NCBI GenBank assembly: GCA_938002655.1
Contig: CALLAC010000001.1
Span: 248,001-312,000 of the forward strand
DNA length: 64,000 nucleotides
From: an uncultured Cytophagales bacterium
GTDB taxonomy: Bacteria > Bacteroidota > Bacteroidia > Cytophagales > Thermonemataceae
Reading direction: 5' to 3'
Below the pieces are notes generated by a model, which made no database searches, was not told the origin of the DNA, and saw only the letters and a program-made list of their open reading frames with translations. Shown one piece after another: positions 43,671 to 50,262 of this stretch. A program made the translations under genes and the position numbers. Within the stretch, counting starts at the first letter, position 1. Each line of letters opens with the position of its first letter.

Positions 43671-44411
43671 TCACATGTCAAATTTTTTCCTTTTGAACTC
43701 ATACAATTCGCCAAGATATTTGGCTCTTACTTCTTTATCGTTTACCAACTCTTCGGGAATACCTTCTTTGAATACTTTGCCTTCACTCATTACATACACC
43801 CAATCGGTGATAGAGAGTGTTTCGTCGGCATTGTGGTCGGTAATTAGTACTCCTAAATTTTTGAATTTGAGTTTATAGACAATCTTTTGAATTTCCTCTA
43901 CTGCCAGCGGATCTACACCTGCAAAAGGCTCATCGAGCAAGATAAATTTGGGATTGGTAGCTAGGGCTCTTGCAATTTCGGTGCGTCTGCGTTCTCCTCC
44001 TGAAAGCACTTTTCCCATACTTTTTCTGACGTGAGTGAGGTTAAATTCTTCCAAAAGGGCTTCGGTGCGTTCTTTTTGTTCTTGTTTGGAAAGGTTAGTC
44101 ATTTCCAAAACGGCTTTGATATTATCTTCTACACTCAAATTTCTGAAAACCGAAGCCTCTTGTGCCAAGTAGCCCAAGCCCATTCTTGCTCTCTTGAACA
44201 TTGGCAGTTGGGTGATATCTTCATTATCTACGAATATTTTGCCTTCATCGGGCTTTACGAGGCCTACGGTCATATAGAAAGTAGTAGTTTTTCCTGCTCC
44301 GTTGTGTCCTAAAAGTCCGACAATTTGCCCTTGTTCTACCTGAATAGAAACATTATTTACTACATAACGCTTGCCATATTTCTTGATTAAATTTTCTGCT
44401 CGTAGTTGCAT
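43671..44411 (-). CDS. lptB: LPS export ABC transporter ATPase LptB
   Basis: ATPase of the Lpt machine that moves lipopolysaccharide to the outer membrane. The 246-residue protein has Walker A GHNGAGKTT, the Q-loop GYLAQEASVFRNLSVEDN, the signature LSGGERRR, and Walker B ILLDEPFAGVDP, all in the LptB form. The ATG at 44411 is used; the frame is open to 44486. Downstream porZ begins after 1 base; lptC/F/G are not in the window. Confidence 0.95.
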   Translation of the reverse strand: MQLRAENLIKKYGKRYVVNNVSIQVEQGQIVGLLGHNGAGKTTTFYMTVGLVKPDEGKIFVDNEDITQLPMFKRARMGLGYLAQEASVFRNLSVEDNIKAVLEMTNLSKQEQKERTEALLEEFNLTHVRKSMGKVLSGGERRRTEIARALATNPKFILLDEPFAGVDPLAVEEIQKIVYKLKFKNLGVLITDHNADETLSITDWVYVMSEGKVFKEGIPEELVNDKEVRAKYLGELYEFKRKKFDM

Positions 44412-44472
44412 AATGAGTGTTTTTCTTTTTGCTGACGCAAAATTTATTCCATTTTTTACTTCATACAAACCT

Positions 44473-44493
44473 CCCCAAAGTTGCACTTTGGGG
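44473..44493. repeat. Perfect CCCCAAAG hairpin
   Basis: CCCCAAAG, a 5-base loop, and CTTTGGGG form a perfect 8-bp GC-rich stem between lptB and the dipeptidase, 11 bases past the dipeptidase stop. No T run follows on the minus strand. It differs in sequence from the AAACCTATGAGG family. Confidence 0.7.
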
Positions 44494-44503
44494 AATGGGG
44501 TCT

Positions 44504-45901
44504 TTATTGAGTGTTATTTTTCAGGCGAACATAGTTTTTGTAAAAAAGTGGTATGGTTTCAATTCCCTTGAAAAAGTTAAAAACTCCATAGTGTTCATTA
44601 GGCGAGTGGATTGCGTCAGAATCAAGACCAAAACCTAAAAGTACCGATTTCAAGCCCAATTCTTTTTCAAAAAGTGCTACAATTGGAATGCTTCCGCCAC
44701 CACGCGTAGGGATAGGCTTTTTGCCGAAAGTTTCTTCCATAGCCATACTTGCCGCTTGGTATTCTATGGAATGGGTAGGCATTACATAGGGGAAACCACC
44801 ATGATGAAAGCGAACATCAACCTTGACAGATTTTGGAGCAATGGCTCGGAGATGTTTTTCAAAAAGTTCGGCAATTTCGTCAGGGTGTTGATTGGGCACA
44901 AGTCGCATGCTGATTTTAGCGAAAGCTTTGGAAGGAAGTACCGTTTTAGCTCCTGCTTGGGTGTATCCGCCCCAAATGCCATTTACATCAAGCGTAGGAC
45001 GAACAGAGGTGCGTTCAATGGTAGAGTATCCTTCTTCGCCTGCTACATCATCAATGCCTAAATCTTTTTTATAGGCTTCCAAATCGAAGGGTATTTTTGC
45101 CATTTCGGCACGTTCTTCGGCAGAAAGTTCTTGTACTGTGTTGTAAAAATGAGGAATAGTGATTCTACCTTTTTCATCTTTGAGCGAAGCTATCATTTGG
45201 CAAAGCACATTGATAGGGTTGGCTACTGCTCCGCCATATACGCCCGAATGCAAGTCGCGGTTAGGTCCTGTAATTTCTACTTCTACATAACACAAACCAC
45301 GCAAACCTGTTTCTATCGAAGGAATATCGTTGGCAATAATACTCGTATCGGAAATAAGAATAACATTAGCTTGGAGACGTTCTTTGTTTTGCTTGATAAA
45401 AGGTTCTAAATTTCCTGAACCGCATTCTTCTTCACCTTCTATGATAAATTTGATATTGCAGGGTAAAGTATTGGTTTTTAGCATTATTTCTAATGCTTTG
45501 ACGTGCATGTAGGTTTGTCCTTTATCGTCGCAAGCACCACGGGCAAAGATAGCTCCTTGAGGGTGCAAAGGGGTAGATTTGATAACAGGCTCAAAAGGAG
45601 GGGAGTCCCAAAGTTCGTAAGGGTCGGCAGGCTGAACATCATAGTGCCCATATACAAGTACGGTGGGCAGATTTTTATCAATCATTTTTTCAGCATAGAC
45701 GATTGGGTGCCCTGCGGTGGGGCAAAGTTCGGCTGTATCGGCACCTGCTTCTAAAAGTTTTTTTTGCAAAAATTCGGCAGCACGCTTTACTTCGGCTTTT
45801 TTGGTTTCGTCGGTACTTACCGAGGGTATTTTTAACCATTCTATGAGTTCTGCTAAAAAACGTTCTCGGTTGGCTTCAAGGTAAGTTTGGTAGGTTTGCA
45901 T
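44504..45901 (-). CDS. M20-family dipeptidase
   Basis: Zinc metallopeptidase, cytosolic, cleaving dipeptides. The 465-residue protein has the family landmarks LVYGHYDVQPADP (metal-binding His and Asp), ARGACDDKGQ, IEGEEECGS (catalytic Glu and metal ligands), SDTSI and a late SDAIHSPNEHYG. A lid domain separates the two metal halves. It follows ispF by 28 bases and may share a transcript with ispF and doxX. Confidence 0.94.
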   Translation of the reverse strand: MQTYQTYLEANRERFLAELIEWLKIPSVSTDETKKAEVKRAAEFLQKKLLEAGADTAELCPTAGHPIVYAEKMIDKNLPTVLVYGHYDVQPADPYELWDSPPFEPVIKSTPLHPQGAIFARGACDDKGQTYMHVKALEIMLKTNTLPCNIKFIIEGEEECGSGNLEPFIKQNKERLQANVILISDTSIIANDIPSIETGLRGLCYVEVEITGPNRDLHSGVYGGAVANPINVLCQMIASLKDEKGRITIPHFYNTVQELSAEERAEMAKIPFDLEAYKKDLGIDDVAGEEGYSTIERTSVRPTLDVNGIWGGYTQAGAKTVLPSKAFAKISMRLVPNQHPDEIAELFEKHLRAIAPKSVKVDVRFHHGGFPYVMPTHSIEYQAASMAMEETFGKKPIPTRGGGSIPIVALFEKELGLKSVLLGFGLDSDAIHSPNEHYGVFNFFKGIETIPLFYKNYVRLKNNTQ

Positions 45902-49105: not shown

Positions 49106-50131
49106 TTAGCCCATTAAGCCAATGTCAATCAAATCTTGTACGTCCAACATTCCTTTGAGTTTGCCTTTTTCAGTAACAATCAGGTTATCTACGTTTTTTT
49201 GCTTGATAAGTTGAACGGCATCGTTCAAAAGAGCATTGCTTTCGATGGTAAGAGGTGTTTTGAACTCAAATTCGCTCATTTTCTTTTTGAGTAAATCTTT
49301 TCCGTTTTCTTTGAGTTTTCTACGCAAATCGCCATCTGTGAAAACTCCGACGAGCTTTTGGTTGCTATCTATTACTGAAACTGCACCAAAGCCCGATTCT
49401 GTCATTTGCACGATAGCATCAAGTACTGTTTCGTTGAGTTGAACGATTGGATTTTCTTTACGAATAATATCTTTGACGCGTTTGGTCATGAGTTTGGTAT
49501 GTTCTTCAAATTGTTGTGTGCCAATAGCTGTGAAGTGGTTTTCGGTAAGTTGTTTCATAATTTTCCAAGGTACGGTGATGGTATGTACACCTATATTGAT
49601 AGCATTTCGGACATGTTCTACATTACGCACCGAAGAGAACATAATTTTGGAATGGTAGCCGTAATAATTTACGGCATCTACGCATTGTTCTACAAGAGCT
49701 AGTGCGTCGTGTCCTTGGTCTTGCAATCTGCCTACCAGGGGGCATACGTAGGTAGCCCCTGCCGCCATAGCCATATAGGCTTGTTGTAGGGTATACACCA
49801 GATGAATATTCACTTTATAGCCTTCGTCTGTGAGTTTTTTGCAGGCTTTTACACCTTCCAAAGACACAGGTATTTTGAAGACGGTTTTTTCTTTGCTCAA
49901 GCCTAATTTTACAAGTCTTTTGGCTTCTTTTATGATTTCATCTGCATTTTCGCCGAGTGCTTCTACTTGCAAAATAGGCACCATTTTAGAAAGTTTGAGA
50001 ATAATTTCATCTACATTTTTTATACCTTCGCGGTGCATAAAAGTAGGAGTGGTGGTCAGTCCTGTAAGAAATCCGAGTTGGAAGGCTTCTTCAATTTCTT
50101 TAATGTCAGCTGAATCAAGATAGAGTTCCAT
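49106..50131 (-). CDS. FSA/TalC-type transaldolase fused to two CBS domains
   Basis: The 341-residue protein begins with a complete small-type transaldolase/fructose-6-phosphate aldolase barrel (about 1-215). It has MELYLDSAD, TGLTTTPT, the Schiff-base Lys K86 in VFKIPVS, PLVGRLQDQG and the IMFSSVRN strand. Residues about 226-341 form a CBS pair (VIDSNQKLVGVFTDGDLRR, then LKGMLDVQDLIDIGL). The CBS part closely resembles the tail of arabinose-5-phosphate isomerase KdsD. So a sugar-phosphate aldolase or transferase seems to carry a nucleotide-sensing regulatory unit. A GC-rich terminator closes it. The activity (transaldolase versus aldolase) is not decided by the motifs alone. Confidence 0.9.
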   Translation of the reverse strand: MELYLDSADIKEIEEAFQLGFLTGLTTTPTFMHREGIKNVDEIILKLSKMVPILQVEALGENADEIIKEAKRLVKLGLSKEKTVFKIPVSLEGVKACKKLTDEGYKVNIHLVYTLQQAYMAMAAGATYVCPLVGRLQDQGHDALALVEQCVDAVNYYGYHSKIMFSSVRNVEHVRNAINIGVHTITVPWKIMKQLTENHFTAIGTQQFEEHTKLMTKRVKDIIRKENPIVQLNETVLDAIVQMTESGFGAVSVIDSNQKLVGVFTDGDLRRKLKENGKDLLKKKMSEFEFKTPLTIESNALLNDAVQLIKQKNVDNLIVTEKGKLKGMLDVQDLIDIGLMG

Positions 50132-50262
50132 TGCGTACAAATGTTTATTTTCCAATTACGCCCCAAAGTAAAGATTTTTCTTGTAAATCTCAAAATGGAT
50201 TTTACAGCAAGGCAAAATTTTCTGTAATTTGCGGCATAGTTTAGCAATATAAACTCCTCGAT

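Follow-up and report, generated by a model that had tools for sequence, protein, structure and literature searches.

A transaldolase–CBS fusion most likely supplies the arabinose 5-phosphate for Kdo synthesis in lineages that have no KdsD

Kdo is a core sugar of most Gram-negative lipopolysaccharides (LPS), and the pathway of its synthesis is studied as an antibacterial target. A passage of PMC10448790 names the supply of D-arabinose 5-phosphate (A5P) through a KdsD-type isomerase as the first committed step of this pathway. Since the step is described for that isomerase, the genomes that carry the fusion protein analysed here appear to be without it. An E. coli K-12 strain without kdsD and gutQ depends on added A5P + G6P for growth (PMC11301363). 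NMR measurements of A5P and of Kdo8P exist for a Bacteroidota strain, Bizionia argentinensis (PMC9478572, in excerpt). Enzymes of the KdsD/KpsF/GutQ type possess a C-terminal CBS pair with the motif FTDGDLRR, and their genomic place is beside kdsA and kdsC-like genes. The fusion resembles them in both respects; however, it has no SIS isomerase domain and its catalytic domain is a transaldolase-type barrel. The described enzymes closest to this barrel are TalC/FSA (TIGR00875; B. subtilis 3r8r, T. maritima 1vpx, E. coli FsaA 1l6w), with which it shares the fold, the barrel length, the Schiff-base lysine, D6, R135 and S167, with E57 as in transaldolases. The fusion differs from TalC/FSA in T28, H110, C130 (or T) and L132 in place of N, T, S/A and F/Y, in the additional CBS pair, in the linkage to Kdo genes, and in a score under the family cut-off. 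In FsaA, the donor dihydroxyacetone is stabilised by N28 and A129, and the catalytic water is held by Q59, T109, and Y131 (a passage of PMC13259622). For E. coli FsaA and FsaB, an excerpt of PMC6298115 gives glycolaldehyde as the preferred donor, which with the acceptor glyceraldehyde 3-phosphate (GAP) yields A5P. The same fold also serves a specialised sugar pathway in the sulfofructose transaldolase BmSF-TAL (8bc3, 8c4i), which differs from the fusion in its single-domain chains of 218–226 residues and in its substrate. That a transaldolase of this fold can bind A5P covalently is shown by the Francisella tularensis enzyme (PDB 3upb, according to its title); however, A5P is a reported inhibitor of transaldolase there (Light and Anderson, 2014, as cited in a passage of PMC7895386), whereas for the fusion it is the proposed product. 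Among open-licence papers in PMC, no title on a transaldolase–CBS fusion or on a transaldolase-fold A5P supplier was found, nor was a paper combining arabinose 5-phosphate, transaldolase, and CBS domain.

The fusion gene lies in the window, i.e., the whole stretch of 64,000 nucleotides from an uncultured Cytophagales bacterium that was analysed (Table 1). An earlier note, made from the letters of this DNA, had placed the gene rightly at 49106–50131, and its strand is corrected here to minus. Read from 50131 to 49106, the minus strand holds one open frame starting with ATG at 50131, and the plus strand of the same stretch is interrupted by stops. An alternative start, TTG at 50155, would give 8 extra amino acids; the alignment of relatives starts at the Met of ATG 50131 (MELYLDS or MELFLDS), i.e., it does not include the extension. 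The arrangement proposed in the note, a barrel followed by two CBS domains in the same frame, was confirmed, as the 341-residue frame matches PF00923 (residues 3–220, 136.3 bits vs. a gathering score of 27) and, in two separate stretches, the CBS family PF00571. The motifs it had named, K86, GRLQDQG, VGVFTDGDLRR and GMLDVQDLIDIGL, are all present in the translation. The PF00923 score, the barrel fold, and the Schiff-base lysine place the protein in the transaldolase/FSA superfamily, and the score of 168.6 bits to TIGR00875, the FSA/TalC equivalog, is below the cut-off of 245.95. The profile TIGR00393 (kpsF) is matched with 72.7 bits (cut-off 203.7) and at profile positions 152–267 only, and a Pfam scan allowing E values as high as 0.1 gave no SIS family; the protein has the CBS pair of KdsD/KpsF/GutQ and is not a full-length member. 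Among solved structures, the profile comparison places the CBS pair closest to those of A5P isomerases, with 4o9k (E 4.2e-25) and 3k2v (1.3e-20) as the best matches, which together with the TIGR00393 match upholds the earlier comparison with the tail of arabinose-5-phosphate isomerase.

Table 1. Positions in the window of the fusion gene, its parts, selected codons and a nearby LPS export gene.
Feature	Position	Strand	Remarks
Fusion gene, 341 aa, transaldolase-fold barrel and CBS pair	49106..50131	minus	Proposed A5P-supplying enzyme
TAL/FSA barrel, residues 1–213	49493..50131	minus	PF00923, predicted model, VIA-align
CBS pair, residues 214–341	49109..49492	minus	PF00571, TIGR00393 tail, profile matches 4o9k/3k2v, model
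FTDGDLRR motif, common to fusion and KdsD CBS pairs	49319..49342	minus	
K86 codon, Schiff-base lysine (FsaA K85, TalB K132)	49874..49876	minus	K in 81/81
T28 codon (N in FsaA, TalB, TalC)	50048..50050	minus	T in 81/81
H110 codon (catalytic-water Thr109 in FsaA, Thr156 in TalB)	49802..49804	minus	H in 81/81
C130, P131, L132 codons (A129/P/Y131 in FsaA; S176/P/F178 in TalB)	49736..49744	minus	Counts in the text
lptB (LPS export ATPase)	43674..44513	minus	TIGR04406 363 bits, cut-off 240; 4.6 kb beyond fusion, context only

The predicted model of the whole protein has a mean pLDDT of 90.6 and a pTM of 0.64, and because of the latter value the mutual placement of barrel and CBS part is not trusted; the CBS part modelled alone reached a pLDDT of 92.0. 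With VIA-align, the modelled barrel superimposes on the Thermoplasma acidophilum transaldolase 3s0c with Z 28.8 and rmsd 1.7 Å over 215 aligned residues, and on 3upb with Z 21.6 and rmsd 1.8 over 191. The barrel is thus complete, as the note had it; however, its active site differs from those of FSA and TalC. This was analysed in an alignment of 81 sequences, consisting of the window protein and 80 further loci, against E. coli FsaA and TalB. Residues D6, E57, K86, N108, R135, S167, and R169 are unchanged in all 81, and E57, N108, and R169 agree with TalB and not with FsaA. At position 130, 75 of the 81 sequences have C and the other 6 have T, position 132 is invariably L (81/81), and the position of FsaA A165 is occupied by S166 in 81/81. 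Both E. coli references have N at the 28 position and T at the 110 position, and 11 canonical TalC frames, one from the window’s own genome and 10 from nine sampled genomes, show N, T, S, F, and A at the 28, 110, 130, 132, and 166 positions that are altered in the fusions. Of the residues characteristic of FSA/TalC, N28 is replaced by T, T109 by H, and the aromatic residue at 131 (F or Y) by L in 81/81. Considering the roles of N28, A129, T109, and Y131 in FsaA, these replacements indicate that donor-specificity and acid–base positions were changed and the lysine chemistry was kept.

Conservation of the fusion, which the note had asked to be checked, was found in 80 further loci with 59–96% identity to the window protein (the best 80 of 106 relatives), the closest being that of Raineya orbicola with 96%. 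The gene is also found in Thermonema, and Runella and Flammeovirga type strains are examples of isolates that carry it and have no KdsD. These best 80 of 106 come from Bacteroidota, from Desulfobacterales and other Deltaproteobacteria-labelled MAGs, from one Ignavibacteriales MAG, from Chlorobiota-labelled MAGs, and from one SAR324 MAG. The frame has 334–343 codons for amino acids in 78 of the 80 loci, the two shorter ones being L073 (285 aa) and L079 (282 aa), and both Pfam domains are present in all 58 members scanned. A frameshift, an assembly error, a chimera, or a singleton is ruled out by the 80 loci, of which 78 are near full length, and by the two-domain result in 58/58. Within the window’s order, the fusion is present in 69 of 194 sampled genomes, about a third, a count that includes three matches with one internal stop (G320, G416, G429) and two partial ones (G291, G372). 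Outside this order it is uncommon, with 4 of 198 genomes in the phylum sample, and 8 of the 146 genomes drawn from the order that includes the Desulfobacterales MAG G011 have it; in this last sample the fusion was counted and KdsD was looked for only in G011 and G015. One locus of the Desulfobacterales-order sample (L162, G539:C166:24030–25035) has its TAL and CBS parts in different frames with a junction at about 24655, which is either a sequencing slip or a genuine split.

The genomic neighbourhood was analysed with tblastn on the 80 fusion loci, with the loci having enough flanking sequence as denominators. In 49 of 72 loci, the gene of KdsA, the Kdo-8-phosphate synthase, precedes the fusion on the same strand by less than 400 bp (median gap 37 bp), and in 48 of 74 loci a gene for a KdsC-like HAD protein follows the fusion within the same limit; the label “KdsC-like” is based on similarity to E. 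coli KdsC in 25 of the 54 loci of this cluster. Of the 80 loci, 23 have a KdsB-like gene no more than 6 kb away, and the KdsC-, KdsA-, and KdsB-like clusters are the three commonest among the neighbours. Both flanks are long enough in 66 loci, of which 56 have a KdsA or KdsC-like neighbour, 34 have both, and 10 have neither. In the order sample, KdsA is located 17–988 bp upstream in 36 of the 61 fusion genomes with a KdsA place among the matches listed; 8 of the 69 fusion genomes had no such place among them. In five KdsD genomes, KdsD follows KdsA at 119–154 bp, i.e., in the slot that the fusion holds elsewhere. In the window’s own genome these genes are scattered, with the fusion on C1, kdsA at C4:998–1765, and kdsB at C9:17215–17928. 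Adjoining the fusion on its strand of the window are a holB-like gene, gpsA, ispF, and a gene for a dipeptidase, none of them a Kdo-synthesis gene.

Decisive for the interpretation are the genomes, in which the fusion and KdsD almost completely exclude each other. Fifty fusion genomes were tested, consisting of the window’s genome (G000) plus 49 loci picked by hand from the 80 for isolates and long contigs; KdsA was above the cut-off in 50/50 and KdsD in 3/50. The window’s own genome, which is 97.5% complete, has KdsA, KdsB, and GmhA above their cut-offs, and KdsD above the cut-off was not found in it. A hidden SIS-type A5P isomerase was considered there and rejected, as the sole own-genome match to the SIS part of TIGR00393 among the matches listed (G000:C16, 28.5 bits) is GmhA (TIGR00441 234.4, cut-off 209.45; NF001628 289.3, cut-off 265). 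The exclusion was quantified with an evenly drawn sample, 194 genomes from the window’s order, in which fusion, KdsD, and KdsA were each searched for and found in 69, 90, and 155 genomes, respectively. Among the 155 KdsA genomes, the fusion is the sole one of the two enzymes in 65 and KdsD in 86, two have both, and two neither (G369, 6% contaminated, and G406, 79% complete), so that exactly one of the two enzymes is present in 151 of 155 (Fisher p 1.2e-38, a statistic that ignores phylogeny). The remaining 39 genomes have no KdsA, and 4 of them have the fusion or KdsD. At the level of genera (93 in this sample), the fusion occurs in 37 and KdsD in 45, and both occur only in g150 and g169. Eight families (f2, f4, f43, f44, f48, f53, f56, f57) contain both alternatives, which points to repeated exchange of the fusion and KdsD. 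In the phylum sample of 198 genomes, which overlaps the order sample in its members, the 146 KdsA genomes have KdsD in 141 cases, the fusion in four, both in none, and neither in one, and two further genomes have KdsD but no KdsA. The genome with neither enzyme is G072 (f22), in which KdsA and KdsB are present and searches for KdsD at E <= 1e-25 and for the fusion at E <= 1e-60 gave no match; it possibly uses a third source of A5P. KdsD and the fusion were found together in four distinct genomes examined (G308, G333, G011, and G036; G333 is the same genome as G010, judged by coordinates), and a second KdsA is present in three of these. G308 (L113, L131) and G333 (L119, L132) have two KdsA genes each, of which one precedes the fusion by 136 or 165 bp and the other lies in the vicinity of KdsD, on the opposite strand and at a distance of 483 bp and 5.6 kb; in G036 the second KdsA match is partial and sits at the edge of a contig, and G011 has one KdsA above the cut-off.

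The partner enzyme itself also largely separates the two groups of genomes. A KdsA tree was built from 90 sequences, 59 rows from fusion genomes and 31 from KdsD genomes including E. coli (89 of the 91 loci with a match, plus E. coli, with some genomes represented twice, e.g., L014 and L132). In this tree, for which the program warns of long branches, all 59 fusion-genome KdsA proteins fall behind a single long, starred branch, together with four rows from KdsD genomes; examples of this clade are L133 (G000:C4) and L131–L140. Compared with the clade formed by the remaining 26 rows from KdsD genomes (the E. coli sequence being noted where it deviates), they have fixed differences, such as KDNRS for KANR(T/S), M120 for R, R205 for Q, Y207 for P (R in E. 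coli), and others. Both clades keep C26, K60, N62, R63, D95, H97, Q113, K138, R168, H202, E239, and D250, and the metal-ligand and catalytic residues that were checked are retained in the fusion clade. As M120 replaces R120, which we take to be a contact to the phosphate of A5P, the substrate of the fusion-clade KdsA might differ; the altered site leaves room for a hand-over from the fusion or for a changed specificity. The four KdsD-genome rows inside the clade come from G272, G299, and G387 (f4, g130) and from G357, which have KdsD and do not have the fusion. A hidden fusion paralog was considered for these genomes and rejected, as their TAL matches at E <= 1e-5 are all canonical TalC. Judged from these genes, KdsD has apparently replaced the fusion in the four genomes, in a natural swap. 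Since the fusion-type KdsA would there work with KdsD, whose product is A5P, the swap is the best evidence for A5P as the product of the fusion.

It is proposed that the fusion is a non-homologous replacement of KdsD that supplies A5P to KdsA for Kdo synthesis, a role to which we assign a probability of roughly 0.8. The complementary presence and absence of the two enzymes is the reason for assigning the same role to both, and the partnership with KdsA in genomes is seen in the exactly-one pattern and in the kdsA adjacency described above. The link to Kdo and LPS synthesis, suggested in the note from the CBS motifs, is strongly supported by the linkage to kdsA, kdsC-like, and kdsB genes seen in many genomes and by the near-complete exclusion with KdsD. 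However, some observations speak against the replacement role. In the window’s own genome the fusion is adjacent to neither kdsA (C4) nor kdsB (C9), 10 of the 66 two-sided loci have neither of the KdsA and KdsC-like neighbours, the KdsA of fusion genomes forms a deep separate clade with fixed differences, four genomes hold both enzymes, and the fusion is uncommon beyond the window’s order.

The catalytic domain is most likely a neofunctionalised TalC-type transaldolase. For its chemistry, which we infer together with the A5P product, the preferred but tentative choice, held at somewhat below even odds, is a Schiff base between K86 and C1 of an aldopentose 5-phosphate. C1–C5 of A5P would take the places of C2–C6 of fructose 6-phosphate in the barrel, and ribose 5-phosphate and A5P would be interconverted at C2 via an enaminol; alternatively, a retro-aldol cleavage at C2–C3 could be followed by re-addition of an enzyme-bound glycolaldehyde enamine to GAP. 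C2–C5 of A5P have the stereochemistry of C3–C6 of fructose 6-phosphate, and A5P could therefore fit the barrel, minus the CH2OH group served by N28 and A129/S176. Its phosphate would occupy the R135/S167/R169 site, and in the changed T28/C130 pocket, holding the extra CH2OH of the dihydroxyacetone donor would no longer be required. L-ribulose-5-phosphate 4-epimerase, an aldolase fold turned pentose-phosphate epimerase, shares the logic of this mechanism; it has a metal-dependent class II fold and, unlike the fusion, is not a Schiff-base barrel. To our knowledge, no enzyme is known for Schiff-base C2 epimerisation of ribose 5-phosphate to A5P. The fuller picture, in which the fusion epimerises C2 of ribose 5-phosphate (or acts by retro-aldol cleavage and re-addition), was repeatedly swapped with KdsD, and has its own KdsA clade, maybe tuned for hand-over, likewise falls a little short of an even chance.

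Two other reactions would leave the KdsD-replacing role as it is. In one, which we consider unlikely, the carbon source is different, and A5P would arise from free glycolaldehyde, which is added to GAP in a net aldol reaction. The retention of D6, E57, K86, N108, and R135 and the change of the donor-pocket residues (N28, T109, A129, and Y131 of FsaA) are consistent with such an aldolase, and exactly this reaction is reported for FsaA and FsaB in the excerpt of PMC6298115. However, the annotation of neighbours, which covered the three most frequent clusters, gave the KdsC-, KdsA-, and KdsB-like proteins, and a glycolaldehyde-making gene was not recognised among these. It also counts against this reaction that free glycolaldehyde is generally considered scarce in bacteria. 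In the other, the fusion would catalyse the net reaction of KdsD, isomerising ribulose 5-phosphate to A5P non-covalently through an enediol, with E57, H110, and K86 as the base and electrophile set, for which triosephosphate isomerase is a mechanistic precedent. H110 is new and invariant (81/81), E57 and K86 are invariant as well, and the substrate pool would be the same as that of KdsD, so that repeated swaps between the two enzymes would be easy. The retention of the whole Schiff-base apparatus (D6, K86, N108, S167, R135, and R169), needless for an enediol route, argues against it, and this isomerisation is also judged improbable. Schiff-base epimerisation, the aldolase with free glycolaldehyde, and ribulose-5-phosphate isomerisation are not to be told apart by sequence alone.

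The remaining two explanations concern the role itself. It is decidedly unlikely that the fusion makes another aldose phosphate and that the fusion-type KdsA converts it to a relative of Kdo and not to Kdo. The separate KdsA clade with its fixed D61, M120, R205, and Y207, some of which are near what we take to be the A5P site, would fit this; however, the twelve checked KdsA residues are common to both clades, KdsB is present in 10/10 genomes tested, the KdsC-like gene is linked in 48/74 loci, and four genomes combine the fusion-type KdsA with an ordinary KdsD and no fusion. Least probable is the function given in the note, an ordinary transaldolase or fructose-6-phosphate aldolase of central metabolism tuned by a nucleotide such as ATP or CMP-Kdo. 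The TAL fold and the KdsD-type CBS pair agree with it, and its connection to the envelope is strongly supported; the ordinary enzyme is not, considering the TIGR00875 score (168.6 vs. 245.95), the active-site replacements, three of them in 81/81, and the separate canonical TalC in the window’s own genome (C9:2749–3375). An ordinary TalC of the pentose phosphate pathway as the main function was rejected on these grounds, and it would also leave unexplained why KdsD above the cut-off is absent from 47 of 50 fusion genomes.

The fusion is a specific candidate for the missing Kdo step in 69 of 194 genomes of the window’s order and 8 of 146 of the Desulfobacterales order, as well as in single Ignavibacteria and SAR324 MAGs. 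It is also worth noticing that annotation of such fusions as pentose-phosphate transaldolases would be a misreading. The CBS pair is plausibly a regulatory domain of the KdsD type, predicted by analogy to sense a nucleotide of the Kdo pathway such as CMP-Kdo. It retains the KdsD motif GxFTDGDLRR, and its relative 4o9k was presumably solved with CMP-Kdo. Feedback by CMP-Kdo is a natural guess and the candidate regulation of the fusion, and none of the observations favours ATP as the ligand. It looks as if the regulatory domain was retained and the catalytic domain exchanged; in the CBS tree, the fusion and KdsD domains form the two sides of one branch (support 95/52), with the rooting unsure because the branch of the IMPDH outgroup is too long.
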